This document shows, in pieces, positions 4,041 through 56,722 of a stretch of 64,000 bases of DNA. Positions within the stretch are counted from its first letter, which is position 1; each line of letters opens with the position of its first letter. A model generated the notes under the pieces. The model was not told where the DNA came from and searched no databases. It was given only the letters and a program-made list of their open reading frames with translations. Source of the stretch: Acholoe squamosa (taxonomy: Eukaryota; Annelida; Polychaeta; Phyllodocida; Polynoidae); contig OX439036.1 of the NCBI GenBank assembly GCA_949317995.1, positions 5,201,207-5,265,206 on the forward strand, given 5' to 3'. The position numbers were made by a program, and so were the translations under genes.

Positions 4041-4280
4041 TGGCTAGCATATAAAGTGTCTTTTTATGTCATCTTTACTTCATATTCCTCTATTTTTTTT
4101 TCCACTCTCCCTCCCTCTGTCCCCTCCCCTGGAGTGCCATCCTTACACCATCAGATACACACACATCACCAGTCCCTACGGAGCACTGAGACCAGTGCCA
4201 TGAACTGTAACATAACAAATGACCTTTCTGTGTTTTTGTTTCACTCTCCTGGTTCTCTTAACTCCTAGAGCTTATGTCTT

Positions 4281-4373
4281 AACCCTTTAAAGGCAGCTTA
4301 TAACTGCATCAGTGCATCACGCCCATGGGTCTTCATGATGCATGAATGCAACCCTAGTGAGTATTTCTGTCTC
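4281..4373. mobile_element. Nested-hairpin MITE, partial copy
   Basis: Begins with the family end AACCCTTTAAAGGC and continues with TGCATCAGTGCATCAC, GCCCATGGGTC and ATGATGCATGAATGCA. It breaks off within the segment that in other copies forms the CCCTGGTGAGT hairpin. Full copies are at 19438-19655 and 22655-22838. Confidence 0.6.
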
Positions 4374-4779: not shown

Positions 4780-4905
4780 TCTGTTAACCCTTTATGGGCT
4801 GCAAATACAGGACTGCATCATGCATATTGGTAGGCATGAGGCATCAATGAGTGTGGTGCCGACATATGATGCATGAATTTATTCACTGGCACCCGCATTG
4901 CCAGT
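4780..4905. mobile_element. Nested-hairpin MITE, diverged copy
   Basis: Starts with TTAACCCTTTATGGGCTGC and contains GACTGCATCATGCATATTGG and GATGCATGAATTTATTC, matching the ends and middle of the nested-hairpin family with many changes. Confidence 0.5.
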
Positions 4906-6544: not shown

Positions 6545-6735
6545 TAGATCTGGCCATAGCCCCATTATTCCTTAGTTAGGGAATAATGCACTTGGTCATG
6601 GCTGAGGTCATGCTCTAGACTGCATTGAGACATCTCGATGACTATAAGGCCCCTTGATGTCTCAATACAGTCTAGAGCACTACCACAGCCATGATCCTGT
6701 ACATTATTCCCTAACTAGAAATGGCCACGGTCCTA
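6545..6735. mobile_element. Foldback MITE (CATTATTCCCTAACTA)
   Basis: Inverted repeat with arms of about 85 bp. The left arm contains TAGTTAGGGAATAATG and the right arm CATTATTCCCTAACTA. The inner parts pair through CTCTAGACTGCATTGAGACA and its diverged complement TGTCTCAATACAGTCTAGAG. A single arm of the same family (TGTCTCAATACAGTCTAGAG to CATTATTCCCG) is at 41456-41530. Confidence 0.7.
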
Positions 6736-6982: not shown

Positions 6983-7222
6983 GAGAAAATATTGTTACTC
7001 ACTTGAGTCTAGATCCAGACTCAGGCAATGTCGCCAAAATGAGTATGGTTTGAGACTCCGCCTGATCCTTGGATGATACTCAGGCAAAGCCAGAGTATCA
7101 TCCAAGGATCAGTCTCAGGATCTGCCTGAGTATCATCCAAGGATCAGGCTGAGTCTGAAACCCTACTCGATACTAGATACATCTAGTCTGGATCTAGAGT
7201 CAAGTGAGTAACAATATTTGCT
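6983..7222. mobile_element. Palindromic MITE with AAATATTGTTACTCACTTGA ends
   Basis: Left end AAATATTGTTACTCACTTGA is repeated in inverted form on the right (TCAAGTGAGTAACAATATTT). Arms continue through TCTAGATCCAGACT. The interior holds several copies of GATCCTTGGATGATACTC and its complement, so the whole 240 bp can fold. No coding capacity and no clear target duplication. Confidence 0.7.
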
Positions 7223-11106: not shown

Positions 11107-11507
11107 TTTATTCATTACAAAGATATGCTTATAATCTAAGTGCTCAGGAAGTTATGAAAAAATCTGTCAACTTTTGGATATGAATATGGAGATCAATGTG
11201 ACAAATTACTGCATAATCCTATATAATATTAAAGGTTCTGTATCTCAAAAATATGAATGGGTCCCCCACCGGCAGTAAGCTACAAGCCTATCCATTCCTC
11301 CAGCACTAGTCCAAGGGAAATGAATCTGTTTACATGTGGTCAGTATGGACTATAGGTTGCAGTTATTATATGTACAAGTGACAAGTAATCAGGGATGGAC
11401 TATAGTTTGGCATCATATAAATTTTGATGGCCATGCATCAAATGCATCAACTCACCAACCTGAACCACTACATCCCAACTCACCAACCATTACACCCCTT
11501 GAAGGAC

Positions 11508-11605
11508 CACTAATGCATTAATGCATCCTGCCCATCGGTCATCATGATGCTACATTCATGCATCATGACGACCATATGAGTTGATACACACACTGCAAAA
11601 GGGTC
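11508..11605. mobile_element. Nested-hairpin MITE, partial copy
   Basis: Contains CATTAATGCATCCTGCCC, GGTCATCATGATGC and CATTCATGCATCATGACG, all modules of the family best seen at 22655-22838. Confidence 0.5.
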
Positions 11606-11659
11606 AGCATAATGCTCCAATTAAGTGTTGGAGAGCACTCTAATCCCACCTTACCAACC

Positions 11660-11872: not shown

Positions 11873-12107
11873 AACCACCAATCACTCTGTATGTACCTGA
11901 AGTGACATGGAATGTGTAAAAATAGACACCAGTAAACAGAACAACAGCTGTGTAGGTATTACCAGTCTGCAACATGTGTATTTGTAGCAGTAACTGCTCC
12001 AAATATAACAATACTATGTGACTGGGCTCCTAATATGGGAATGACTTGCTTGTTTTCCATTCTAAGACTCCAATTAACCAATGCCATGTCACTTTGAACT
12101 CCTAATA

Positions 12108-12181
12108 TGCACTTCATACATTGGTGCATCATGATGTCCAATGGACATGATGCATTAATGCATCAGAGGCCCTTGAAGGGT
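12108..12181. mobile_element. Nested-hairpin MITE, right-end fragment
   Basis: Carries CATTGGTGCATCATGATG, GGACATGATGCATTAATG and the terminal GGCCCTTGAAGGGTTAAG of the nested-hairpin family. Its left half is missing. Confidence 0.55.
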
Positions 12182-12925
12182 TAAGAGGTGTGTGCGGCCC
12201 TACTGTGGAGGAGGGGGTATGAGAGCTGTCAAAGTCGTGACCATTAGGGTGTGTTACAGTTAGGCCTCTGTGATGTCACAGGGTGGTTAGCTGCAGGCAG
12301 ACATTGGCAACACATGGTTAGGTGACTACACCATGAGTAGAAGCTCCTCAATATATTAGAATATATTAGATAGGATATTGTTAGATGACTATATGGAATG
12401 ATTAGTATGTAAATTACATGATTTAACATGTACAACAAGAGATTAAGATCTAATTGCAATGTGTGTATAGTTTTCAGGTAAGTGCATCCTAGTCATCTTA
12501 TCCAAAGGTAAGATTACATAGCTGTAATGGTTAAAGGCTATGGGCCACAAAAACCAAAACAAAAATCTAGGACTTTGCCAAGCATGTTGTAGAAATTCAT
12601 TGTTTCTCCATACTATCAACCATTCAGTGATCATGGTCACTGAAAAGCAATTATTCTTTGCTGGGTTTTCACTGGTGGGTGTTAGAAATGTTCATTTCCT
12701 GCTTGGGATATCAGAAAAAATCATTGGCAAATATGTGCATACATGTCAAATAACAATTTTAGAGAACCTTTGAAAATTTTGAAAAAATCATATGGAGTAG
12801 AACGTGTTGTCCTCTTGAACCACTTAGTAGGATGTTGCCTCCAGGTCTTCATTGGTCCAACTTCATGCACCTATAAAGACAAATGGTATATCCATTACTC
12901 ACTAGGTTATGCCAAACCAAACAGA
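12182..12925. other. No recognised gene
   Basis: Several overlapping short frames on both strands; none shows a recognised family or splice consensus. No arrays. Confidence 0.3.
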
Positions 12926-14057
12926 AGGAGGTAGGTGTGGACGTAGAGGGAGCTGGGTGTGGACATAGAGGGAGGTGAGAGTGGACACATGGGGAGGTGG
13001 GTGTGGACACATGGGGAGGTGGGTGTGGACACTGAGGGAGGTGGTTGTGGACATAATGGGGATGTGTAGGAAGATAGAGGGAGGTGGGTGTGGACACGGA
13101 GGGAGGTGGGTGTGGATAGAGAGGGATTTGGATGTGGACATAGAGGGATTTGGGTAGACCCAAAGGGAGGGCGGGTGTGGACATAGAGGGAGGTGGGTGT
13201 GGACCCAGAGGGAGGTGGGTGTAAACACAGAGGGAGGTGGGTGTGAACAAAGAGGGAATTGAGTGTTGACATAGAGGGAGGTGGGTGTGGATAATGAGGG
13301 AGGTGGGTGTGGACACAGAAGGAGGTGGGTGTGGACATAGAGGGAGGTGGGTGTTGACATAGAGGGAGTTTGGTGTGTACAAAGAGTGAGGTGTGTGTGA
13401 ACAAAGAGGTCAGTGGTTGTGGACAAAGAGGTAAGTGAGTGTGGACAAAGAGGGAGGTGGGTGTGGACACAGAGAGCTTTGGGTGTGGACATAGTGGGGA
13501 TGGGTAGGAAGATAGAGGGAAGGCAGGTGTGGACACAGAGGGAGATGGGTGTGGATACAGAGGGAGGTGGGTGTAGACACAGAGGAAAATGGGTGTGGAC
13601 ATAGAGGGAGGTGGGTGTGGACCCAGAGGGAGGTGGGTGTAAACACAGAGGGAGGTGGGTGTGAACAAAGAGGGAATTGAGTGTTGACATAGAGGGAGGT
13701 GGGTGTGGATAATGAGGGAGGTGGGTGTGGACACAGAAGGAGGTGGGTGTGGACATAGAGGGAGGTTGGTGTTGACATAGAGGGAGTTTGGTGTGTACAA
13801 AGAGTGAGGTGTGTGTGAACAAAGAGGTCAGTGGTTGTGGACAAAGAGGTAAGTGAGTGTGGAAAAAGAGGGAGGTGGGTGTGGACACAGAGAGCTTTGG
13901 GTGTGGACATAGTGGGGATGGGTAGGAAGATAGAGGGAAGGCAGGTGTGGACACAGAGGGAGATGGGTGTGGATACAGAGGGAGGTGGGTGTAGACACAG
14001 AGGAAAATGGGTGTGGACATAGAGGGAGGTGGGTGTGGACACAGAAGGAGGTGGGTA
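12926..14057. repeat. 22-bp minisatellite with 418-bp higher-order repeat
   Basis: About 51 units of a 22-bp sequence of the form GGGAGGTGGGTGTGGACACA. A block of 19 units is itself duplicated: the stretch starting GTGTTGACATAGAGGG is at 13263 and again at 13681, exactly 418 bp (19 x 22) apart, as is the CCCAGAGGGAGG unit at about 13200/13618. Because 22 mod 3 is 1 and the unit has no stop, all minus-strand frames stay open and give long His/Pro/Ser/Thr frames (up to 391 codons) that I regard as artefacts. The array resumes at 17291. Confidence 0.95.
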
Positions 14058-14289
14058 CAGTGGCCCACAAGGGTCAAATTGAAGTTGGAGCAAAGAGTTG
14101 ACTTTCACAAAAAAAAGTCCAAAAGCAAAATCAATGTTCAAAGTCAATTTCATTTCATTGCTGTCAAGCTGTCAAGGTGTCAACTCATGAATGCAAACCC
14201 ACTTGTGACAGGTATCTTTTGGCTTTGCATGGTACACTCTCTGTCTTTCTATATGTCTATACCAGCAACTACTGGGTAGCTATTGGTTC

Positions 14290-14850
14290 CCTCACACAAT
14301 AACTGATGGTTCCATACCAAGTAGCTGCTGGTTCCAGCATCCCATAACTGGTGGTTCCAACCCACTGTAACTGGTGTTTCCACACCAATCAGCTACTGAT
14401 ACTGGATCCCATACCAAGTAGCTGCTGGTTCCCACACCCAGCACTTGGTAGTCCCATACACATAAGTTGCTGTTTCCTGTACCCAGTACATGCTGGTTCC
14501 CACATCCAGTAGCTGCTGGTTCCCACATCAGGTAGCTGCTGGTTCCCATATAAACTGGTTCCTAACCCAAGTAGTTGCTGGATCCCACACCCTTGCTGGT
14601 TCTTGTTCCCAATACCTGCTGGCTTTCACATAGAGTAACATGGTAGTGGTTCCCACATCCATTAGGTGCTGGTTCCTGCACTCACTACCTGCTGGTTCCC
14701 AAATAGAGTGCCTGCTGGTTCCCACATCAGGTAGCTGCTAGTTCTGAAAACAGTAGCTGTTGGTTCCCATACAGTAGCTACTTGTTCCCATATCCAGTAG
14801 CTGCTGGTTCCGATATAGAGTAGCTACCGGTTCCCATACCTAGTAGCAAA
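14290..14850. repeat. 23-bp array in left arm of the foldback element
   Basis: Degenerate units of the form CTGCTGGTTCCCACATCCAG plus TAG. The complement array on the right arm is at 16620-17060. Frames across it (for example 14528-14725 minus and 16592-17164 plus) are translations of the repeat, not genes. Confidence 0.85.
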
Positions 14851-14879
14851 AGAGTGATCTGAATAAATTCTGGATGAAA

Positions 14880-16610
14880 AAGGTCATATAAGTCAAAAAT
14901 GGGCAAATTGGGAAAGTTGCGTGAAACTAGGTCATAAGCAGTCAAGATAGTTAAAATTTGTCGAAATAGGTCAAATTGGTTCCAAGTAGGTAAAATTGAA
15001 TGAAATTAGGTCAGACTAGGATAAATTATGTCAAGTTGGTTGAAAATGGGTCAATCAGGTCAAATTCTATCAAATTAGGTCAACGGTGGTAAGAATAGAT
15101 CACATTGGTCAAAATTAGGTCCAAGTGGGTTCAAGTAAGTCAGAGTGGTCAAAAGTAGGTCAATTAAGGTCGAATTATGTCAGAGTAGGTAAGGATAGGT
15201 CAAATATAGCAAAAATAGGTCAAATTGGTAAAAGGTAGTCCAATAAGGTGAAATCATGTCAAATATGGTAAAAGTAGGTCAAATTGGTCAAAAGTAGGTC
15301 AATTAGGTCAAAGTAGGTTAAGATAGGTAAAATAAGTTCAAATTTTGTTAAAACAGGTAAAATTGGTCAAAAGTAGGTCCAGTAGGTCAAAGTAGGCTAA
15401 GGTAGGTCAAATATGGCGAAAATAAGTCAATTTGGTTAAAGGTGGGTCAAGGAGGTTAAATAAGGTCAAATATGGTAAAAGTAGGTCAAATTGGTCAAAG
15501 GTAGGTCAGTAGGTCAAATCAGGCTAAGATAGGTCAAATTAGGTCAAATAATGGTGAAAATAGGTAAAATTGTTCAAAAGAAGGTCAATTAGGTAAGGAT
15601 AGTTCAAATTAGGTCAAATATCTTAAAATAGGTCAAATCATTCAAAAGTAGCATGATTAGGTCAAAGTAGGTTAGAATAGGTCATATTAGGTCAAATATA
15701 GTCAAAGTAGGTCAGATTGGTCAAAAATAGTCAAAGTCGACCTTATTTTGACAAATTTCGACATAATTTGACCTAAATGACCTACTTTTACCTATTTCCA
15801 GCATATTTGACCTTACTTCACCTATCATAACCTACATTTTGACAAAATTGACCTACTTTTGACCAATTTGATCTATTTCAACCATATTTGATCTATCCTG
15901 ACCTTATTGGACCTAATTGACCTACTTTTGATCAATATGACCTGTTTTCACAATATATGACCTTAATTGACCCATCTTGACCTAATTGACCTACTTTTGA
16001 CCAATTCAACCTGTTTTCACCATGTTTGACCTAATTTGATTTACTTTGACCTTATCGAGTTGTTTTCACCATATTTGACCTAATTTGACCTATCCTACCC
16101 TTATTGACCTACTTTTTACCAATAAGACCTATTTTCACCCTATTTGACTTAATTTAAACTATCCTGACATTATTTATCTACTTTTGACCAATTTGACCTA
16201 ATTTCGCCATATTTACTCTAATTTGTCCTATCCTACCCTATTTGACCTGCTTTTCACCAATTTGACATATTTTTCCAGCATATTTGACCTAATTTGACCT
16301 ATCCTACCCTTATCAACCTACTTTTTATCAATTAGACCTAATTTCACCCTATTTGACTTAATTTCACCTATCCTGACCTTATTGACCTACTTTTGACCAA
16401 TTTGACCTATTTTCACCATATTTACTCTAATTTGTCCTATCCTACCCTAATTGACCTGCTTTTGACCAATTTGGCCTATTTTCACCATATTTGACATAAT
16501 TTGACCTATGCTACCCGAATAGACATACTTTTGACCAATATGACCTATATTCAACATATTAATTGACCTAATTTGACCTATCCTGACCCAATTGACTTAT
16601 TTTGACAGCT
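14880..16610. repeat. AGGTCA-rich inverted arrays
   Basis: The left half (to about 15735) consists of short units such as TAGGTCAAATTGGTCAAAAG. The right half is built of the complement (TTTTGACCAATTTGACCTA). The switch of strand is abrupt, at 15730-15745. A few dozen AGGTCA hexamers point right in the left arm and left in the right arm. The combined structure could form a very long imperfect hairpin. Confidence 0.9.
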
Positions 16611-17290
16611 ACTCTTTTAAGAACTCGCAATTACCTGATGTAGGAACCAGCAGGCACTCTATTTGGGAACCAGCAGGAAGTGGGTGCAGGAACCATCACC
16701 TAATGGATGTGGGAACCACTACCAGCTACTCTATGTGGAAGCCAGCAGGTACTGGGTGCAAGAACCAGCAAGGGTGTGGGATCCAGCAACTACTTGGGTT
16801 AGGAACCAGTTTATATGGGAACCAGCAGCTACTGGATGTGGGAACCAGCATGTACTGGGTACAGGAAACAGCAACTAATGTGCATGGGAACCACCAAGTG
16901 CTGGGTGTGGGAACCAGCAGCTACTTGGTATGGGATCCAGTGCCAGTAGCGGATAGGTGTGGAACCGCAGTTACAGTGGGTGGGAACCACCAGTTACAGG
17001 ATGCTGGAACCACCAACTACTTGGTGTGGAACCATCAGTTATTATGTGAGGGAACCGATAGCTACCCAGTAGTTGCTGGTATAAACTTTGTTCATATAGA
17101 AAGACATAGAGTTAACCATGCAATGCTAAAAGATACCTGTCACAAGTTGGCTTTCATGAGTTGACACCTTGACAGTTTGACAGCAATGAAATGAAATTGA
17201 CTTTGAACATTAATATTGGTTTTGGACTCTAACTTTTTTGTGAAAGTCAACTCTTTACTTCAACTTCAATTTGACCCTTGTGGGCCACTG

Positions 17291-17870
17291 TAGTAGGGTG
17301 TAAACGCAGAGGGAAGTGGGTGTGACCACAGAGGGAACTGGGTGCTGACATAGAGAGAGGTGGGTGTGGACACAGAGGGAGGTGTGTGTGGACACAGAGG
17401 GAGATGGGTGTGGAGTAAGTGAGTGAGTAATAGATGTTTAATGCCATTTCGACAGCTAAGGTCATATTCATGGTGAGAACGACATTACGCAATTTCAGAG
17501 GAATGTGTCAGTGCCCGCGCATATGTGCACCACACACATCCTGAGGGGATAGGAAAGATGAGAAGCAGACCCTTTTAAGTGGGTTAGGGAAGCCCGAGAT
17601 GGGTGTGGACATATAGGGAGTTAATTGTGGACAAAGAGAGAGGGGGGTGTGGACATAGAGGGAGGTGGGTGTGGACACAGAGGGAGGTGGGTGTGTATAT
17701 AGAGGGAGGTGTGTGTGCACTTAGAGGGGATGTGGACATAGAGAGGATGTGGATGTGTGAGGGGGTGCATGTGGACAAGAGGCATGTGAGTGTATGTGGA
17801 TAAAAGGGAATGTATGTACATAGATGGATGTGAGTGTGGACACATATACAGACATGTAAATATACTGGGA
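17291..17870. repeat. Continuation of the 22-bp minisatellite
   Basis: The same GAGGTGGGTGTGGACACA units as 12926-14057, in the same orientation, interrupted by the short element at 17415-17596 and becoming degenerate after about 17720. With the two inserts removed, the array would be one block. Confidence 0.9.
17415..17596 (-). mobile_element. SINE-like element, full copy with 13-bp TSD
   Basis: A 182-bp element flanked by AGATGGGTGTGGA at 17402-17414 and again at 17597-17609. The plus-strand left end is GTAAGTGAGTGAGTAATAG and the right end GGGAAGCCCG. On the minus strand it would start with CGGGCTTCCCTAACCC and end in a variable ACTCACTCAC tail. The insertion interrupts a minisatellite unit, and the flanks rejoin cleanly when it is removed. 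A weak A-box-like TAGCCCA (seen in sister copies) lies near the inferred 5' end; no B box was found. Confidence 0.75.
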
Positions 17871-19437
17871 CAGAAGGGGAATCTGACCATGAGTGTTGCA
17901 ATCTACAACAACCCTGCATACAAGTAAAGTCACCTTCTGCTAGGTGCTTGTGTGAGTTACCCAAATTAGGCTGGCTGGGAATGGGTACACTGTATAAGAG
18001 GTAAGGTAATCAGTACACAAGGTGGGCCCACTATGACCTGGATTGGGAAAGGGTCTGACTGCCTCTGACACTTAGTTGTATAGTAGTAGTAGGCAGCTGC
18101 AATAAGGAGGGCTATTTCTGAACACAGCCAGTGGCCACACAATTACATGTATAGGTTTGCAATAGATGTACAATATCACATATTATTGCAAATAAAGATC
18201 CAGTCAAGTACTTAGGATTTATTTTATGGATCATTGCAAATGCTGGTAAAGTGCTTGAATTAGCATTCATGAATATTGCACACAACAAGGTACAATGCCA
18301 TTGGTAATATTGAGATACTAGTGCCATTTCCTATTTAGGATTGTAAGTGCCCTTATGAATAGAGCAGCAAAAGAAAATGGTGACCTTTGCATGTCATAAT
18401 GAATAGAAAATGGTAAAAAATGGCAAATTTATGCTTACCCACTGTTACCCTCAGTTTTTGGAGACAGGTCTTGTGTGTAGGTGAGCCAGGTGGAAATGAC
18501 AGCTGAGGTGGGGCAGTGTAGCCCAAACTGGTTGGTCCTGTTGGTGTTTGGGAGTGTTCAGTAGGTATCAGCAGGGGGTGAGGGGGCACAGGGGTGGTCT
18601 ATTTCCATCTGATATGTCACATTCATTTTTCAAATCATACTCAAATATGTTCTCGACGCACACATGTCATAACATGGTATTTATGTGTTAATAGTCCATT
18701 AAATATCACATAGTTATAGTCCATTAAATATCACATAGTTCATAGTGAGTCTATACATGAGGTGTGATGGACCTAGGCATAAACCTGTTACAGTGTATTT
18801 TCAATGGATGGAACTATGGCATGCATCCCATATGAAGGAAGTCTTGTGTAAATTTGAGATTTCCCCAAATATTTTCCCCAAAAAATGACACAAAAGTGAG
18901 TCAGAAAAGTTTTCCATGTGAGTATCTTGATGCTCATTTTTGAGAAGATTAATTCTTGACACTCAGCAATGATTGCTGGTCTCATATAAGTACCAGTGGT
19001 TAGTGGGGGTGGGGAGGTGTTAAAATAACTCTTCAGCACTAAAATTTCATAAGTACCTGTCTTGGATATGGACCAGGGGTAAAGACCAAACCAAATGTCT
19101 GGGTATTTATTTAGTACAGTGAATAAGGCACAGTGAGATTTTGGGCGCTTTTGCACGGTTAAGTAGACAGCACAGACAGTGTTAAATGATGCAAGTATAT
19201 TTTTCATGGGAGGCTGAGTTTAGATATGCTTTTACATTCACCTATTATGTACCAGAAATCCCCCTCCCCATCTGACTAAAATGACCTGTTCTGTAAGTGT
19301 GTACCACAGGTGGTTTGCCTGCACCCTACCACCTTGACAGTCTAAATTTAGCTGACTCCTTACTTAGTGCCCGTAAACAACTTACCATGCCCTATAATCA
19401 TTGAGTGCCTATTTGCCAGGCCTCTAAATGCTACCTA
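17871..19437. other. Mostly unrecognised
   Basis: A 27-bp sequence (TAGTCCATTAAATATCACAT) is present twice in tandem at about 18690-18745. The 139-codon minus frame at 18788-19207 is the longest non-repetitive frame in the window, but a frame of that length is expected by chance in 64 kb, and no motif was recognised. Confidence 0.35.
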
Positions 19438-19655
19438 ACTCTTTAAGGTCTGCTGATGCAGTAGTGTAACGTGCCCATTGGCTGGCATGTTTTACCGATG
19501 AAGACTTGGGGAGTCTGCTTGCCAGCACTTCATTGGGGCATCATGCTGATCTTCTCAAAGCGTAAGCATGACGCTTGAATGTAGCCCTGGCTGCATTAAT
19601 GCATCATGACAACCAAAATGCATTATTGCATTAGGGTTAGCCCTTAAAGGGTTCA
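19438..19655. mobile_element. Nested-hairpin MITE, near-complete copy
   Basis: Both ends are present: AACTCTTTAAGG on the left and CCTTAAAGGGTT on the right. Between them are TGCCCATTGGCTGGCATG, GCCAGCACTTCATTGG, GCATCATG and GCATTAATGCATCATGAC. The inner hairpins are degraded here compared with 22655-22838. Confidence 0.65.
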
Positions 19656-20893: not shown

Positions 20894-22654
20894 GGTTGTT
20901 TCTGATTCTATGATAATTGTACATCACTCAATCAATCTTAGACATTCATTCTTGGTTTGTAAAAGGCAGGATGAAGTTTTGGGGTTGGCAGCTTTGAACA
21001 GAGTATGCATAGTGACCTGTTTCATAACACATAGTATCTGCATAAGTTACCAAAGACGACTTTCTATTTTCGCAATCAGGGAGGAAAGCAGATGACCAGT
21101 TGAGTTTTTTTTTTCATAACCAAAACCGTGTTTTTTCTAATATATTTTTTTTTTAGTTCGAAAATTGTAATTTGGTGTTCTTATAAACTCATTTCTTTAA
21201 AATACAATATATTCTACGTAAGTACATCTATATTACACTAATTCAATGTTGTTACAACATTGCGGAAGGCCCTTAATCTTCTTTATTACAACATGGCAAA
21301 ACATGTTACAGCTGAAAAAATATCTGAGAGTCATGTCCCCAAAAATGTATTTTTGCACTAAAACTCATAATAGTCATAATAAGGGTCAAATCGATTACCA
21401 ATTGTAAAAAGTACAATTGGTATTCCACCATGGAGGTTTGGTACTTTGCTTTTAATAACTTTCATATCCTTTCCATATTCCAATTATTCACAGAGACTTC
21501 AGCTTCTATATCGACTAGATAGGTAGTTAAATGTACTTCCTGCCATGGTAGCATGGAATATCTGAGAGGCATGTACTTCAAACCACACAAAGCACACCTA
21601 ATAATGTGTATTCACAGCAAGCTAGCATAATTAAATAATGAATGCATATCATAGGACGCTCTAGGGTCACAACTGCAGGTGCTGAGTGATAGCTCTTATA
21701 TAGCTGTATACCAGTGGCTGACTGCCTGTCACCCCACGGCCGATGACACTGGTGACGTGTTATACGGGTCTTCACACTTCAGTGCTATACACGGCCTGGT
21801 TGGCTATGCTATTGTGAGGGTGCACTCTTCAGGGCTACTACTTCTTTACCTTGCGCCATGCTGTAGTTATGAACAGAAAAAGGGGCGGTCCCATGCTACT
21901 TTTTGAGATATGGAATTTTGGAAAAATAAAAGTTCTTATATTTTTTCTCAAAAGAAAAAGGTCAAAACTTCATAATTTTTCTTAATATTAACCATTAATC
22001 ACAGAAACATGAAAGGTCACTATTTATGCAAGATAATTACAAATTTTTTTTTTTGTCCAATGGCATGGCATTCTTGGTAAAAATGTAATTGAGAAAGAGT
22101 AGGAACAATTTGACATCATTTTACAATATTTGTGCCTAAAAACAGTATGGACAGTACATAGAATATTTTTTATTCTTTCTCAGAAAATACCTTACATAAA
22201 TACCTTTTGTATGAAAATAATTTTTACATATGGGCCCACGCATACTTTTAGGGTTTGAAATAAAAAAGTACTCCAAAAATTAACAAAATCTGTTTGGAGC
22301 ACTGCATGAGTAAAATAGCAACAATTATACTATAAAACAGTTTCTAGCTACACCTTTAGGATATTCTGAGCATCATAATCACTTCCCTGATTTTGTTTAG
22401 AACATATGAGTGTTATAGATATAAACCACAGAAGAAAGTTGGAAAAAATTGAATTAAATCTAGATGCAAATATGCACAAATTTTAAGTTGCCATAAACTA
22501 CTCAATTATTGATCAAAATGACCTGAAATCTTTTGTGAGTAGTCAAGGCAAATATAAGTATAGGCCTACCAAAAATTACAATTCTGACTAAGATAACCTA
22601 TATACACAGAGACCTGCGCAGTGGGTTCATTATGAACAAGTAGTGACCAACCTT
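20894..22654. other. AT-rich, no recognised gene
   Basis: Contains poly-T tracts at about 21105-21155 and the short palindrome CAATGTTGTTACAACATTG at about 21243-21261. GGTCCCATGCTACTTTTTG at about 21889 resembles a stretch at 8529. No coding evidence. Confidence 0.35.
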
Positions 22655-22838
22655 AAGGTATACTGATGCAGGATAATTGGTCATCATGATGCACCAATGA
22701 AGTGCTGGCTGGTCTCCTTACCAGCACTTCATTGGTGCATCATGACGATCCCCCAGAAGTGTATCAATCCCATTGTGCCAGCATGATGCTTGAATGCAGC
22801 CCTGGTGAGTTACTCACCAGGGCTGCATTCAGGAACAG
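22655..22838. mobile_element. Nested-hairpin MITE, reference copy
   Basis: Two perfect hairpins are visible. Hairpin 1 has 24-bp arms at 22685-22708 and 22721-22744 (CATGATGCACCAATGAAG and complement). Hairpin 2 has 20-bp arms at 22791-22810 and 22812-22831 (TGAATGCAGCCCTGGTGAGT and complement) with a single-base centre. Family ends of AACCCTTTAAGGG type are not intact here. No coding capacity. Confidence 0.8.
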
Positions 22839-26319: not shown

Positions 26320-28785
26320 GTTCTGTGACTTCAAACCCCCATATCTCGGAAGTTTACGCCGTTACAACCGCAATTTTGCGCATGCTCGGAGTTGAATATG
26401 CCAAGTTTATAATGCCCGCTTGATAGGCGCGTAACTTGCGCTGGTTTGTCTGTGGTGCACTCGGAGGTCGAATCCGTCTCTATGGCGTAACTTCCTTAAT
26501 AATAGGAGTTCCGCCTTATTCTTAGGCTCATTTTGACCGTCTTCTTTTGGGCTTTCCATAAATGCTTTGATATTTGACCTAGGTTGCTTAGGAGCGACGC
26601 TAGAGCGACCGGACAGTTATGGCGTCGTGCTTATGTAACCCATTGTTCAGTTATTAGAGTGCTCAGACACTCATGACGGCGTCTGCGGTGCCCAGGCACC
26701 CGTGACGGCCGGTTGCATTCACTTACAACTTATTAGTTTGTGCACTGAACCATGAGGTCGCACACTGAGACCCTCAGTTTTATTATATTGTGCAGTGAAC
26801 CATTAGGTCGGACCCTTTGATGTCACAAACTCTGTGTAACTGACTTGGCTGGTGTGCAGTAAGGCATGAACGCTCTTATACAAGTTTGAGCGCTCTTATA
26901 GCTCTTAGAACCAACCTATGTATTGATTCCTTATACAATACATTATTTGATCAATACAATAATATGTCACAATTTATGGAATAATAAAATGGTATATGAT
27001 ACTATGGTGCATACACACATGGTGAGCCTGGTCACGTGGTAACGCTTTAACGGCAACTGGATAATTCGAAGGCCAAATAATAAAAAAGTTTGTTTCCAGT
27101 AACCCGACCGACCTTAGCAAAATAGGGGCTATGGGTTGATAAAACCATGCACCCCTGCATTGTTCTGTAAATCTTTCAACAAAAACTTGTTTAACTGCTA
27201 TTTTCTTTTACTCCCTGAGTGCATCTCAACATTCATGGGCCATAATGAGTTTCTACAGGTTTTTTTTCAGGTTGAAAATTGCTGAAAGGCCATCTGCGTG
27301 AGCTTAAAATTGATAATAGGTGAGTCCTTGGACCATACTCTTGCACTCAGATGCATTCGTGCATTATAGGACAACAGACAGTCTCGATGTTAAGAAGGAG
27401 TTGTCTAATGTCTTTATAAAACATTTTACTTTTCATTGCAATCAATCAAGTACCCAATCAAGTTATATCTAGAAGAATTAAGGGTACCTGACTGGTTTAC
27501 AGCTATGGTGACCTTCTCAGCTGTGCACTGTATTCCTATGACTCAGCTGTGCACTGTATTCCTATGTTCTGTGACTTCAAACCCCCATATCTCGGAAGTT
27601 TACGCCGTTACAACCGCAATTTTGCGCATGCTCGGAGTTGAATATGCCAAGTTTATAATGCCCGCTTGATAGGCGCGTAACTTGCGCTGGTTTGTCTGTG
27701 GTGCACTCGGAGGTCGAATCCGTCTCTATGGCGTAACTTCCTTAATAATAGGAGTTGCGCCTTATTCTTAGGCTCATTTTGACCGTCTTCTTTTGGGCTT
27801 TCCATAAATGCTTTGATATTTGACCTAGGTCGCTTAGGAGCGACGCTAGAGCGACCGGACAGTTATGGCGTCGTGCTTATGTAACCCATTGTTCAGTTAT
27901 TAGAGTGCTCAGACACTCATGACGGCGTCTGCGGTGCCCAGGCACCCGTGACGGCCGGTTGCATTCACTTACAACTTATTAGTTTGTGCACTGAACCATG
28001 AGGTCGCACACTGAGACCCTCAGTTTTATTATATTGTGCAGTGAACCATTAGGTCGGACCCTTTGATGTCACAAACTCTGTGTAACTGACTTGGCTGGTG
28101 TGCAGTGGGGCATGAACGCTCTTATACAAGTTTGAGCGCTCTTATAGCTCTTAGAACCAACCTATGTATTGATTCCTTATACAATACATTATTTGATCAA
28201 TACAATAATATGTCACAATTTATGGAATAATAAAATGGTATATGATACTATGGTGCATACACACATGGTGAGCCTGGTCACGTGGTAACGCTTTAACGGC
28301 AACTGGATAATTCGAAGGCCAAATAATAAAAAAGTTTGTTTCCAGTAACCCGACCGACCTTAGCAAAATAGGGGCTATGGGTTGATAAAACCATGCACCC
28401 CTGCATTGTTCTGTAAATCTTTCAACAAAAACTTGTTTAACTGCTATTTTCTTTTACTCCCTGAGTGCATCTCAACATTCATGGGCCATAATGAGTTTCT
28501 ACAGGTTTTTTTTCAGGTTGAAAATTGCTGAAAGGCCATCTGCGTGAGCTTAAAATTGATAATAGGTGAGTCCTTGGACCATACTCTTGCACTCAGATGC
28601 ATTCGTGCATTATAGGACAACAGACAGTCTCGATGTTAAGAAGGAGTTGTCTAATGTCTTTATAAAACATTTTACTTTTCATTGCAATCAATCAAGTACC
28701 CAATCAAGTTATATCTAGAAGAATTAAGGGTACCTGACTGGTTTACAGCTATGGTGACCTTCTCAGCTGTGCACTGTATTCCTAT
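26320..28785. repeat. Tandem duplication of a 1246-bp unit
   Basis: 26320-27539 is repeated as 27566-28785 with only a handful of differences seen (for example GGAGTTCCGCC versus GGAGTTGCGCC, CTAGGTTGC versus CTAGGTCGC, CAGTAAGGC versus CAGTGGGGC). At the junction, 26 bp (CTCAGCTGTGCACTGTATTC region) are duplicated once more. The unit has CpG-rich parts and one weak tRNA-like stretch (GGAGGTCGAATCCG preceded by TAGGCGCGTAACTTGCGC). It encodes no recognised protein; frames of up to 77 codons recur because the unit recurs. It may be a real recent duplication or a false duplication from assembly of two haplotypes. Confidence 0.9.
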
Positions 28786-32895: not shown

Positions 32896-33030
32896 CGATG
32901 CAGTAGTACATCATGCATGGTGCCCCAATGAAGTGCTGGCCAGCAATCTCACTTCATTAGTGCATCATCACAACCATTGGGTATGATGCATTAATGCATC
33001 AGAAGCCTATAAAAAAGGGCAAAAATGGTT
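32896..33030. mobile_element. Nested-hairpin MITE, partial copy
   Basis: GATGCAGTAGTACATCATGC, CCCAATGAAGTGCTGGCC, CTTCATTAGTGCATCATC and GATGCATTAATGCATCAG are in family order. It abuts the preceding MITE directly. Confidence 0.6.
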
Positions 33031-41455: not shown

Positions 41456-41530
41456 CACTATAAGGCCCCTCGATGTCTCAATACAGTCTAGAGCACTCCC
41501 ACAGCCATGACCAAGTGCATTATTCCCGTT
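41456..41530. mobile_element. Single arm of the 6545 foldback MITE
   Basis: AAGGCCCCTCGATGTCTCAA, CAGTCTAGAGCACTCCCACA and GTGCATTATTCCCG match the right arm at 6649-6715. The other arm is absent. Confidence 0.65.
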
Positions 41531-41968
41531 ATAACACAGAAAAATAACCCATCAGCCACCTGACAACATATCAATATCAATTGTGAAGTCTAAATGTGAG
41601 ATGAAGTTGATCTCCTGTGCTGGGAGTGCATTATCCATCTAGATAATGCACGGTCAATCAGCCAATCAGAATGCAGCATTCAGGATAATGCACTCTGGCT
41701 TCACCCAGCAGTGTTATAACTAGCGATACAGAGGACCTGTGCAACCAGCAATGCTCCAGCCTTCTCGCCTTTTCTCGTGAGAAACTGACTGACCTCAACC
41801 TAAAAATACTTAGAAATTTGTACATTTCTGGAACTAGCAGCACAACAAGACTTTGGCACCCATCTTTGCTGGTCATGGTAATTGGCATGTTCATTTTAAC
41901 CTATGACGGGCACCAACATTCGCATTTAGGGAGGGCTACAGGTAAGGCATTGGTAAAGGTGTTAGTGA

Positions 41969-42110
41969 ACAAGTAATCAACGGATAATTCATGATGTGTG
42001 TGTGTCAGCAAAGGATAATTACATGAGGGCACAGCCCGAGTATAATTATCCTTTGCTAACACACACAAGTCATGAATTATCCATTAACTACTTATTTTAT
42101 TACACGATAC
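41969..42110. mobile_element. Foldback MITE with GGATAATTCATGA arms
   Basis: Left arm GGATAATTCATGATGTGTG to CAGCAAAGGATAATTA; right arm TAATTATCCTTTGCTAACAC to TCATGAATTATCC. Arms are about 52 bp with a 30-bp centre. No clear target duplication. Confidence 0.7.
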
Positions 42111-46493: not shown

Positions 46494-46695
46494 TTCAGCA
46501 TGGTGCATGAAGGCAGCCTTGGCGAGTAGCCTACCAGGGCTACATTCATGTATCATGCCAACCCATGTATGCCAACCCCATTGGGTTGTCAAGATGCTCC
46601 AGTGAAGTGGTGGTGAGCAGACTCACCAGCACTTCATTGGTGCATCATGCCGACCAATGAGCATGATGCACTCCTGCATTATTGACCCTTAAGGG
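46494..46695. mobile_element. Nested-hairpin MITE copy
   Basis: GGTGCATGAAGGCAGCC, GGCGAGTAGCCTACCAGGGC, CAGCACTTCATTGGTGCATC and the right end CCTTAAGGGACT are present in family order. Confidence 0.65.
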
Positions 46696-46974: not shown

Positions 46975-47190
46975 AACATGCATGCATCATACAGCCTAAC
47001 CTAACATGAAGGCATCACGAAGCTTCGATCCGTGGTAAGTAACTCGCCACGGCTACATTTATGGTGCATGGCGACCCCACGGGTTAAATTAAAACAGTCC
47101 TGGAGGGTAGGCAATGAAGTGCTGGCAAGACTGCTTCATTGGTTCATCATGATGACCAATATGCATGATGCACTCCTACATCCATGGCCA
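46975..47190. mobile_element. Nested-hairpin MITE, diverged copy
   Basis: CATGCATGCATCATAC, CCGTGGTAAGTAACTCGCCA, GCAATGAAGTGCTGGC, CTTCATTGGTTCATCATG and ATGCATGATGCACTCC. The second hairpin keeps pairing around GTGGTAAGT despite divergence. Confidence 0.55.
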
Positions 47191-47816
47191 TGAAAGAGTT
47201 CACTCATAATTCCTGAAATGATTAAAAAGGCTCATGTCTACATCGATTTCAGTGTTCCTCAAAACACGGTCCTCATTCTCTATAAACTAATTTTTCCAAT
47301 CGCCTGCGGCTGGGGTAACATTCTTTTTGCCTGTTTTATTAATTTAAACTCGCCGCTATCTTCTTCACACGTGTGGGCACAGTGCTTGAGTTCCCGCTAA
47401 GCTAATTCATGAAATAAATGATGAAAAATGCAGATAAAAGATGATAAAGCTGATAATGATGATAAAGCTCAGCAGCCAGTCAGGTTTAATGGGTCATCAC
47501 TTTCCAGTGCTCTGCGTTTTAATCATGGATGCTGTCTTACATGGTAGGATTACAGATTACATTATTTATAGGACAGGGTTGCCAATCAGTCTACAATCCT
47601 TCACAAACAGTAATACTCTCCCCCTTTCCTACCTCACAGCTTCTTTCTCTACTTGTTTCCCTTGTCGCTCCTTCTTTCCCACTGTTTCCGTTCCCTCCCC
47701 ACTCCCTCCTTCACTTCCTCTATATACTTCATGATGACCAAAATACCATGGGACCTTACTTAGTAGCTGTACCCTTGTATAAGCTGCAACCACCATCTTG
47801 CAAAATCTACACACCT
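47191..47816. other. No recognised gene
   Basis: A pyrimidine-rich tract at 47620-47725 produces Ser/Pro/Leu frames. A GATAA-rich patch lies at 47410-47470. Confidence 0.35.
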
Positions 47817-47959
47817 TAAGCGGGTATTCCACTGCTGGCAGTCGGCCGAAATTATGCTAATCCGATCATTTTTGATAATACAAAATTTACTTTTTGATTA
47901 TTAAAAATGATCGGATTAGCATGATTTTGGCCGGCTGTTGGTAGTGGGATACCCACTTT
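47817..47959. mobile_element. Hairpin MITE with GGGTATTCCACT ends
   Basis: Left arm GGGTATTCCACTGCTGGCAG to GATCATTTTTGATAAT, right arm ATTATTAAAAATGATCGGAT to GTGGGATACCC. Arms are about 60 bp with only a few mismatches and a 17-bp loop. Adjacent to a second, more decayed relative. Confidence 0.8.
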
Positions 47960-47964
47960 AGGCA

Positions 47965-48100: not shown

Positions 48101-48619
48101 GTGCTATTCTAATATCTGTACTATTGAAATCCACACAAAAGCCAAACCCTGAGTTTCCGAAAGCTTAAGTTTGTCAGAATCAAATTTGGCTCCATTTTCC
48201 TGTAGGCGTACACATGCACTATGGAGCTGCCTGCTCAGGGATAATATCTGTTTACATATAGCCACTAAAGCAACCAGTGGACCAGAAACACTCTAATCAT
48301 GATGCTCATTGTATATACCAGTGAATACTCAAGCTTGTGGTCAAATGACATAGCCACCAGCACTATACCAAATATAGATAGAGCCATGAATAGCAGACTG
48401 GGTTATCTATCGTATATGTATCATGTTTTTTTTTGTTTTTTATACCCTTATTCCTGGATCTATAAGCAGCGCATTAAGGAAACGGTTGTTTGCAGAGCTG
48501 CTATGCCTAAGGGAAGACTTCATCCCATTCTATATTTCGAACACCTCAGTACATTACCATCCCGGGATATATTTATACAGAACGTTTTTATAAACCATTT
48601 AAAAGTCGTTGATGTAGGA
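48101..48619. other. No recognised feature
   Basis: A 115-codon plus frame at 48299-48646 runs into the following MITE and has no recognised family. I treat it as chance. Confidence 0.3.
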
Positions 48620-48945
48620 AAGCATCATGCCCATTGGTCGTCATGATGCACCAAAGAAGTGCTGGCGAGAATGCTTGACAGCACTTCTTTGGTGCATCAT
48701 GTTGACAGGCTCGCTTCACCCCATTGGATCATCTTGCCGAACCAACTGGATATTTTAACTTCATGGAGTCGCCATGATGCATGAATATAGCCCTGGTGAG
48801 TCACTCACCAGGGCTATATTCATGACCAGCATGATGCATGAATGCATCACATTATGCATGAATGCATCCTGGCAAGTAGACTCACCAGGGCTGCATTCAT
48901 GCATCATGCCAACTAACTGGAATGATGCGCTAATGCATGAAGCGG
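48620..48945. mobile_element. Nested-hairpin MITE, copy with co-varied arms
   Basis: Hairpin 1 has 23-bp perfect arms at 48642-48664 and 48679-48701, reading CACCAAAGAAGTG and CACTTCTTTGGTG, where other copies read CACCAATGAAGTG and CACTTCATTGGTG. Hairpin 2 has 21-bp perfect arms at 48781-48801 and 48803-48823, reading GAATATAGCCC and GGGCTATATTC, where other copies read GAATGCAGCCC and GGGCTGCATTC. A further repeat of the CCAGGGCTGCATTCATG module is at 48880-48910. Confidence 0.8.
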
Positions 48946-49899
48946 CGCATGCTTGTTTTAGCTACCCTAGCTTCCACATAAGAAATGATGATATATATTG
49001 TCTAGCTGTGTAGAAAGCACCCATTATACCCTAGCATTCTAGGAAAGGAAGTTGGACAATTTCTTGGTGGGAAAAACATAGTGAAGACGCACCAAAGAAA
49101 TAAAACAAATATAAGATGGAAAAAAGCCAAAACAAAATGAAACAATGGAGAAAAAAAACAAGATGGCCTGTCTCCTGTACGTGCCAGCATTAGGGAGGTT
49201 TCTCATTCACCAAACACCTCAGGGTTCTCTCTCACCTGCTGGACTTAGAATGACATGCCCACTAGATTACTGCGCAGGTCAAAACCAGGCTAGGAATAAC
49301 AACTGTCCTTGAGCTTCAGAATGCTTGGTTGTGAAAAAATGGACTTTTATAGCAACCCCCACCTCCCTAAAGAGAGAATCCCCAAACCACCACAGGGGGA
49401 CCGGGCTGCATGGCAGTAAACTATATACAAATTTGCACTTCAATTGGTTGAGAAATATGGATAAGCTAGTGAATTTATGATCTATTTATGACCTAACAGG
49501 GCTGAGTTATATTCAGAAGGGCAATGACATGACTCTTGCTTGGCTAGTGAAGTCCTTGCTCTACTATATTGTCAATATTAGATTAGCGTCAGGATTACAC
49601 CATGGTCTATGTATGATAGGCTATGGCTGCAGATTGCTCACCTAGTGTCACCTGTAATATTCATGGATTTATGTGGTGTAGCTGGCCAATCTTTAAATCC
49701 GGCCATTAACCTGCACTGATCTGTGTCCATTGTAGCCTACAGCCATCAAATGCTTGGTTGGCAACATTCTGTCACTAGCGCTCGCCTAGCATCATAAAGG
49801 AACTGTCATAGTGTAGTGTACTATAGCCTTTTGACACCCAATACCCAGCTATCCTCATCCTCATATCATTTCTACAAAAGCAGCCTATGCAGGACCAAG
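48946..49899. other. No recognised gene
   Basis: Unique sequence leading into the satellite; short frames only. Confidence 0.3.
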
Positions 49900-52256: not shown

Positions 52257-53284
52257 TCTCACATCATCATCCTGTCTTGGTCTGAATCCACCAGGAGATA
52301 ATTGAACTGCTTATCTTAGAAGGAGGCCTGGCGCTTTTAGTGTCAGGGTAATTAAGATGATATTACCGCCTTCGTCTGACATGCGGAGATTGGGCACAAA
52401 CTAACGGGGGGTCCAAAGACAACGGGGTAGGCTATGAGTTATTCACTCGTAGCACACACCTCCATGGTGTATGGTCGTGCTGGCTATGAGGCCATTTTGA
52501 AGACTTACCTTCAAGGCATGTGTCTTGCTCGTAACATGCAAATGGACGAGGCAGGGCAAACTGCATTAGCTAGTTAGCAATTCTGTGCATTGAAATTAAA
52601 GGAATTTAGAGTACTTTTGAGAAATTATAGATTTTTTCCCCCTCCCACTTTTCTATGACAATTTGTGAGTAAATGACCAAAGCCACACATTTTACCAACC
52701 TGAGTCTGCATTGGCTTCCAGGCATCTTGGGTTAAAATAGTTTGTTCATTAGTTGATGAGAGGTAATGTGTAGGCAGGTAGCGTGCGTAGAAACATCACC
52801 CACCTAATTGGCCTCCAAAATGCCTAAACACACGAAAGGCATTTCTTAGAATGTGTCTCGCTGCGAGATTTAGTCCTGGACATTTACTGCAATTGGGTAT
52901 TTCGGCAATAGAATGTCTGTAAAACCAGTTGCCAATTAATCTTTGATAGAAGTTTCCGGTCCATCACAGACTGAAAAGATATTTGCCGTCCTTGATTTAC
53001 TAGCCATGATATCCAAACATGTAACATTAAACTGAGTTGAAAAAATATTATCTGGACCCCGTCCTATCATTCACATTGAACAAGTAGCAACTGTTCTAAA
53101 GGGAGTTAGTGAGGCTGTAGAGGATAGGGGTTGGGGGGGGTGCCTTGAAGTCGGGGCACTGCTCCCCTCCTGACTGTTCAAAGTGTATTTAAGTTACTAC
53201 TCCCTCCTGCACGGCCTAGGATAATACCATCTGTAATAAAGCTGTAAAATATAGACTCACACAACTACCTGACTTCATAACGGG
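52257..53284. other. No recognised gene
   Basis: Unique sequence with a G-run at about 53131-53138. No convincing frame. Confidence 0.3.
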
Positions 53285-53510
53285 CTACTAATGCAGGAGT
53301 GCATCATAGCCTTTACTCATCCTGAAACAACATTCAAGTGCTGCAATGACTGTGAGCAGGCAGGCAAAAAGGATCATCCATGTGGCTTAGGGTGGATGTC
53401 CCTTTCCGCTTGCCTGATGCATGTGAGAAAGTTGCTAGGGCTACATGCATCATGGCGGCACATGTTGGTGATGCATTAATGCATTGGTGAACTTTGAAGG
53501 GTTAAGGGCC
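53285..53510. mobile_element. Nested-hairpin MITE, diverged copy
   Basis: Starts GCTACTAATGCAGGAGTGCA and ends GATGCATTAATGCATTGGTG then GAAGGGTTAAGG. The hairpin modules are largely eroded (CTGATGCATGTGAGAAAG, TACATGCATCATGGCG). Confidence 0.5.
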
Positions 53511-56334: not shown

Positions 56335-56722
56335 CATCCCTGCAGGCTCGGCATGCTGCATTCGTGCAGTACTGAGGGGTTTCCCGCCTCCACTTCATTA
56401 CTGCGTCATGATAATGACTGAAGATGGAGGCCTAGTGGAACTGCCATTTTGAATTTTGCTGGTTGAGGTAAAACCCACTGATAACACATACCATGATGGG
56501 CACCTTGTCCCTGGTTAACACCCACTTCCAGGGATATGCTGGTCCCATCTTATCAGTGTGTGTTGCCGGGACCAGCTCCAGACAGCTATAGTGGCCAATT
56601 AGGGTACCTTTAAGGGCCACTGACGCAGATGTGCATCATACCCAGTGATCAGCATAAATCACCAACGAAGAGTCGAAGAGTATGGTCACCAGCACTTCAT
56701 TGGTGCATTATGCCAACTGTAT
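56335..56722. mobile_element. Two nested-hairpin MITE fragments
   Basis: Fragment one (about 56335-56412): GCTGCATTCGTGCAG, CTTCATTACTGCGTCATG. Fragment two (about 56607-56722): TTTAAGGGCCACTGACGCAG, AGCACTTCATTGGTGCATTA. A third end fragment is at 56965-57025 (CATTGGTCATCATGATGCG, TGGCCCTTAATG). Confidence 0.5.

Follow-up and report, generated by a model that had tools for sequence, protein, structure and literature searches.

Mirrored differences between the hairpin arms of two copies of a repeat family in Acholoe squamosa exceed chance only against a model that ignores standing variants; concerted change of the two arms as a general process was not upheld, and a weak, small family-wide excess of mirrored variants remains. 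The explanation that probably holds as a whole is that the family is a non-autonomous piggyBac-type DNA transposon (MITE) of about 255 bp, the arms of which, once inserted, for the most part mutate independently as neutral DNA, as most of the sample shows, and that new mirrored subfamilies are most likely rare and would be born in source elements, when replication folds back and one arm is copied into the other. A piggyBac-type MITE with hairpins inside its ends is a new, abundant family of a known kind. The stretch of DNA analysed (64,000 nucleotides, positions 5201207-5265206 of contig C2; hereafter the window) is repeat-rich, belongs to a genome of 1.48 Gb in 63 contigs, and contains 12 copies of the family together with smaller fragments.

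The element has TTAA sites, CCCTTTAAGGGCC ends, a length of about 255 bp and one hairpin inside each end. In the printed elements each end carries a CCCTTTAAGGGCC tip adjoining TTAA, then a small palindrome, then a longer hairpin in which the terminal repeat runs on as the outer arm. In the oriented copies a common end TTAACCCTTTAAGGGCC is followed by the small palindrome TGATGCA...TGCATCA (H0), by CCCATTGGTCG and by hairpin 1, and at the opposite end hairpin 2 is accompanied by another small palindrome of similar kind and by the tip in inverted form; the TGATGCA/TGCATCA motif repeats in H0 and in both hairpins. A short terminal inverted repeat beginning with CC[C/T]T was found, the consensus from 14 ends of the 12 window copies being CCCTTTAAGGGC; the genome elements also bear a tip of this type, having been selected for such tips. 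TTAA occurs at one end of window copies G, J, L and O and, by reading of the rows, on both sides of 11 non-overlapping rows among the 26 printed for end-to-end elements, as a target-site duplication. The search that produced these rows allowed up to three mismatches in both tips, and three rows of locus L019 overlap. The end-to-end length was 239-259 bp in 16 of the 26 rows and 188-277 bp in 23, and a genome search for the inner stem of hairpin 1 gave 8152 matches, the backward control none; small size and high copy number, both expected of a MITE of the piggyBac/TTAA type, are documented by these lengths and stems. According to passages of PMC2872659, TTAA adjoining CC[C/T]T tips is the hallmark of piggyBac-type elements. 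A piggyBac-family transposase encoded elsewhere would presumably move the element. Family matches were present in only 4 of 17 arbitrary 10-kb stretches (L021-L025, L027-L031, L033-L039) and were dense in the window and among the best hits. The latter often lay within about 15 Mb of contig ends, and the family may be enriched towards chromosome ends.

Copy A, the subject of the preliminary description, spans 48588-48945 and reads on the forward strand. It begins with a degraded 5' terminal inverted repeat and H0 (48588..48640, aligned with 13 other ends), departing there from the family end in 9 places over 55 nt. There follow hairpin 1 (48642..48701; arms 48642-48665 and 48678-48701), an AAAG/CTTT variant; a spacer separating the two hairpins, delimited by inspection (48702..48766); hairpin 2 with ATAG on both arms (48773..48824; left arm 48773-48801, perfect 22-nt inverted arm 48803-48824); further hairpin-2-like arms (48830..48914); and, by inspection, a remnant of the 3' small palindrome (48915..48945), the 3' terminal repeat being unrecognisable. 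The copy with which it had been compared, copy B, lies on the same strand at 22651..22836 with damaged or lost ends. The other forward-strand copies are E (19437..19653), with both terminal repeats present; O (53270..53506), degenerate, also with both terminal repeats and with the 3' end GAAGGGTTAA; H (56603..56718), a 5' end with a decayed hairpin 1; and L (4784..4850), composed of TTAA, the 5' end and one arm. The reverse strand carries C (46495..46695), with many one-arm changes in both hairpins; F (47020..47200), partial; D (32911..33015), a 5' end with a shortened hairpin 1; G (12094..12184), with TTAA, the 5' end and one arm; I (11490..11643), read from the hairpin-2 end; and J (4279..4366), TTAA with the hairpin-2 end, the orientation of the last two being assigned by inspection. 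Inspection also showed that in copies E and H the left arm of hairpin 1 (19486-19509 and 56653-56676) carries the same three changes, at columns 7, 19 and 21, which the right arms do not have; an older, mispaired arm lineage is perhaps represented.

The window contains neither a tRNA nor an Rfam match at the gathering threshold, and 10 frames selected from its 151 stop-to-stop frames of at least 70 aa had no Pfam match; exact searches with single chosen patterns gave no match in viral contigs or prokaryote genome contigs. Four other long inverted repeats with short spacers were observed at 47814-47962, 41959-42105, 6573-6717 and 7041-7168. They too are imperfect, with 79-87% of the arms paired, and that at 6573-6717 has a relative at 41457-41527. 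Two frames of 77 aa with identical translation (26977-27207 and 28223-28453), 1246 bp apart and with the same 16-mer at 27039 and 28285, indicate a recent direct duplication. Several minisatellites lie in a partly mirror-symmetric block at 12921-17753: arrays with units of 22-23 bp, and GGTCAAA-type arrays that face TTTGACC-type arrays at about 15.74 kb.

The preliminary description had recognised a hairpin MITE in which the letters of both arms change together, and this identity was confirmed, as were the two mirrored differences: AAAG/CTTT in hairpin 1 of copy A (48642-48701) against AATG/CATT in copy B (22685-22744), and ATAG/CTAT in hairpin 2 (48780-48824) against GCAG/CTGC (22791-22831). 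The accompanying statement that both hairpins are perfect applies to hairpin 2 over 22 bp but not to hairpin 1, where a single mismatch interrupts the 24-bp core and another three lie at the core edges. The right arm of hairpin 2 ends after the perfect 22 bp while the left arm runs on, and the left side (48767-48802) also pairs over 36 nt (89%) with 48879-48914, a second right arm bearing GCAG. This second arm, together with the lack of any other exact ATAG arm in the window, was the basis for regarding the ATAG arm as a private fold-back insertion, a reading weakened by the perfect ATAG/ATAG hairpins of loci L013, L055 and L057. An apparent AAAG arm near copy A, at 49089, is a single 12-nt match with one mismatch and was judged by inspection to be due to chance.

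Compared with independent mutation from the window consensus, copy A is unusual in hairpin 2 (P 0.0005-0.001) and in hairpin 1 (P 0.03-0.04); the other window copies contained 2 mirrored sites, the expected number being 1.1-1.7, so that within the window copy A alone stood out. The outer end of copy A has 9 changes in 32 nt, whereas its hairpin-1 arms have 3 in 48 nt (Fisher P 0.011); uniform neutral decay does not predict this difference, which counts against the explanation favoured here.

The frequency of these letters was assessed in a genome sample of 104 distinct hairpins (74 of type 1 and 30 of type 2) taken from the window and from fetched stretches: 20 three-kb loci selected for their similarity to copy A (L001, identical with the window, was dropped), 20 stretches of 10 kb, of which 17 were arbitrary and 3 centred on hits, and 19 stretches of 1 kb surrounding other hits. 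Duplicates of one place were removed by context, and a sampled hairpin had to cover nearly the whole model, truncated or shortened ones (hairpin 2 of copies A and B, and copies D, F and G) standing outside the sample. At hairpin-1 column 14, A was found in 20 of the 146 other arms, and the 74 arm pairs comprised 54 T/T, 15 with A and T, 3 A/A (copy A, L026 and L052) and 2 others. Of the 18 hairpins in which this column has A and no other letter but T, 15 had A on a single arm; the three A/A pairs compare with 1.5 expected (Fisher P 0.15). AAAG is thus a standing variant, mostly unpaired, and its occurrence on both arms of copy A hairpin 1 does not exceed what chance would give in this sample.

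For hairpin 2, 11 of 60 arms have A at column 15 and 21 have T at column 16; counted beside each mirrored hairpin, the figures are 9 and 19 of 58, copy A's own hairpin 2 lying outside the sample. Three further hairpins, in L013, L055 and L057, have ATAG on both arms without mismatch over 29 columns, all of them retrieved by the copy A query, which is itself ATAG on both arms. This recurrence suggests that the state of copy A is most likely an inherited subfamily state, a reading left unproved because the three hairpins were selected by the query and because ATAG faces GCAG 119 times in the genome, some of these in two satellite arrays. Among the matches listed, hairpin-2-like ATAG/GCAG hairpins repeat in one orientation at 62.99-63.01 Mb of contig C8 and 28.32-28.35 Mb of contig C10; on C8 the spacing is frequently 0.8-1.1 kb, a pattern that resembles capture of the MITE by satellite arrays. 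Letter frequencies suggest that source lineages differ in some letters. The preliminary description had named separate AAAG and TATAG subfamilies as the alternative to arm conversion; this is borne out in part, in that AAAG is a mostly unpaired variant and ATAG/ATAG recurs in three more perfect hairpins, but rare copying between arms may still have taken part.

Most tests for a joint change of the arms were negative. In the window, where 13 hairpins were aligned by hand with some arms partial, arms differed within copies as much as between copies, both for hairpin 1 (0.253 vs 0.253, P 0.56, 7 copies) and for hairpin 2 (0.239 vs 0.237, P 0.51, 6 hairpins of 5 copies). Mirrored changes affected 5 of 288 pairs, among 63 arm changes in total, with three in copy A and two elsewhere. 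Where hairpin-1 units are neighbours (16 pairs with 32 entries, a hairpin of L042 being counted twice), partner arms were no more alike than by chance (P 0.61), and there was no excess likeness of arms across the two element ends. The loop-side stem pairs 25-28 matched as expected (smallest P 0.14) in 50 hairpin-1 cases, the first listed of the 8152 stems, which combine a 12-nt loop with perfect pairing of the inner 10 bp, and in 76 hairpin-2 cases, obtained from 100 listed of the 119 mixed ATAG/GCAG hairpins by removing the C8 and C10 arrays and thus drawn from a list of hairpins that are unlike-armed by nature. Cores were perfect in 9 of 74 type 1 and 4 of 30 type 2 hairpins of the genome sample and imperfect in 65 and 26, a few of them through missing outer columns. 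Moreover, 42 of the 74 type 1 hairpins are mismatched at one column, mostly outer ATGCACC against inner ATGCTCC, and this standing mismatch argues both against continual correction and against selection for perfect pairing. Continual arm correction is at least weakened by the window arm comparison, the imperfect cores, the neighbouring pairs and the loop-side pairs.

The genome sample as a whole gave a different result. Arms of one copy were slightly more alike than permuted arms, with differences of 0.1003 vs 0.1107 for hairpin 1 (P 0.0002; 0.0004 on repeat) and 0.168 vs 0.200 for hairpin 2, for which none of 5000 permutations was as low; mirrored variants numbered 16 against 7.3 expected and 24 against 12.1 expected. 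The likeness fell to P 0.031 after the ten query-selected type 2 hairpins were dropped (n 20), and to the same value without the six type 1 hairpins that have C at column 16 (n 68). The covariation score of five window copies was reached by 7 of 500 shuffles, a control that is lenient for related sequences. The preliminary description had held that unpaired changes in most copies would speak against arms changing in concert: most sampled hairpins are indeed imperfect, but the small mirrored excess (P about 0.03 after the exclusions) remains. The two causes it proposed, ongoing copying between arms or selection on the hairpin, are not needed for the two hairpins of copy A, but the same excess persists.

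One rival explanation, which seems improbable, is that template switching at replication repeatedly copies arms onto each other in individual copies, so that hairpins stay perfect while their sequence drifts. The number of mirrored variants above the expectation under independence is in its favour, and so are single cases: A>C at column 13 on both arms of L043:505, the core of which is otherwise matched (1 of 146 other arms has this change), two mirrored changes in the partial hairpin L057:165, and the perfect 22-nt arm of copy A, which has an older GCAG arm next to it, the arrangement expected after a fold-back insertion. The type of mutation is established elsewhere, according to parts of PMC8794818, PMC8604942 and PMC3820800. 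Such repeated copying is nevertheless at odds with the large majority of imperfect cores, with the standing mismatch shared by 42 hairpins, and with the lack of association in neighbouring hairpins and loop-side pairs. Selection on the hairpin, as an RNA (a small RNA precursor) or as a DNA structure that keeps compensatory changes, is very improbable: the predicted RNA folds are stable (-45.2 and -36.4 kcal/mol) and the covariation is weakly in its favour, but most sampled copies have unpaired changes, the arms assort independently in most tests, and the window contains no Rfam match at the gathering threshold. An RNA gene is at least made less likely by the same Rfam result and by the mismatches in most sampled copies.

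Selection might act instead on source elements only, if the palindromic TGATGCA half-sites were transposase-binding sites, the arms being kept alike while an element is active and decaying after insertion. The repetition of the TGATGCA/TGCATCA motif in H0 and both hairpins is consistent with this, as is the binding of piggyBac-end palindromes by the cysteine-rich domains of the transposase, described in a portion of PMC11707139; a conserved outer part of the arm would not, however, explain mirrored letters further in (columns 14-16), and selection of this kind is regarded as unlikely.

Most of the sampled copies decay as neutral DNA would; a special cause is needed mainly for the rise of mirrored source variants. 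These comprise the five differences, all mirrored, that separate hairpin types 1 and 2 (25 of the 30 positions in their consensus arms are shared) and the GTAG-, ATAG- and GCAG-type hairpin-2 units that stand next to one another in a single 404-bp element at L055:371-774 (contig C17, about 59.828 Mb). In the latter element the first hairpin units are separated by nearly the same CCCATTGGTCGT flank, forming a tandem hairpin array inside the MITE. The small excess, the five mirrored type differences and the L055 hairpins leave room for rare copying as a new type arises. Passages of PMC8794818, PMC8604942 and PMC3820800 indicate that template switching makes and repairs stems of this kind; rare fold-back copying in source elements is therefore favoured as what would most likely have produced the mirrored source variants, and recombination between subfamilies is a possible cause. 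A further reading, which is doubtful, is that in source elements fold-back copying of a single terminal-repeat arm gives rise to the hairpins again and again; with the same reserve, hairpins 1 and 2 and the GTAG, ATAG and GCAG hairpins of L055 could then be successive products of this process.

Among known systems, the CMITE elements of Acropora corals, as described in sections of PMC2872659, share with the present family the TTAA sites, tips of the CCCTTT... type (CCCTTTAAGCCCTA in CMITE family II), small size, high copy number, tandem arrays and an internal sequence common to the variants. The present family differs from them in the internal sequence itself, in its length of about 255 bp against about 100 bp, and in the long hairpin inside each terminal repeat. 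The ends of piggyBac and piggyBat, in the portion of PMC11707139 that concerns them, likewise show a short tip followed by a palindrome near the end, whereas the element described here has no transposase gene, a palindrome of other sequence and additional long hairpins. A third comparison is with the compensatory mutations that template switching produces in RNA genes and in inverted repeats of yeast (parts of PMC8794818, PMC8604942 and PMC3820800): multi-base mirrored changes are predicted, as are perfect new stems such as hairpin 2 of copy A. Those cases were inferred on phylogenies or seen in reporter strains, whereas here there is only a weak statistical excess. No title or abstract among the matches listed dealt with mirrored changes between the arms of MITE hairpins; this does not prove that such work is lacking.

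Striking mirrored changes between two copies can thus arise where a very large repeat family contains standing variants and, probably, subfamilies. With thousands of hairpins and a measurable arm mismatch, the family would be a good test bed for the frequency of arm copying. If the repeated rebirth of hairpins by fold-back copying were true, the family would naturally document template switching over short distances in a eukaryotic genome of large size.
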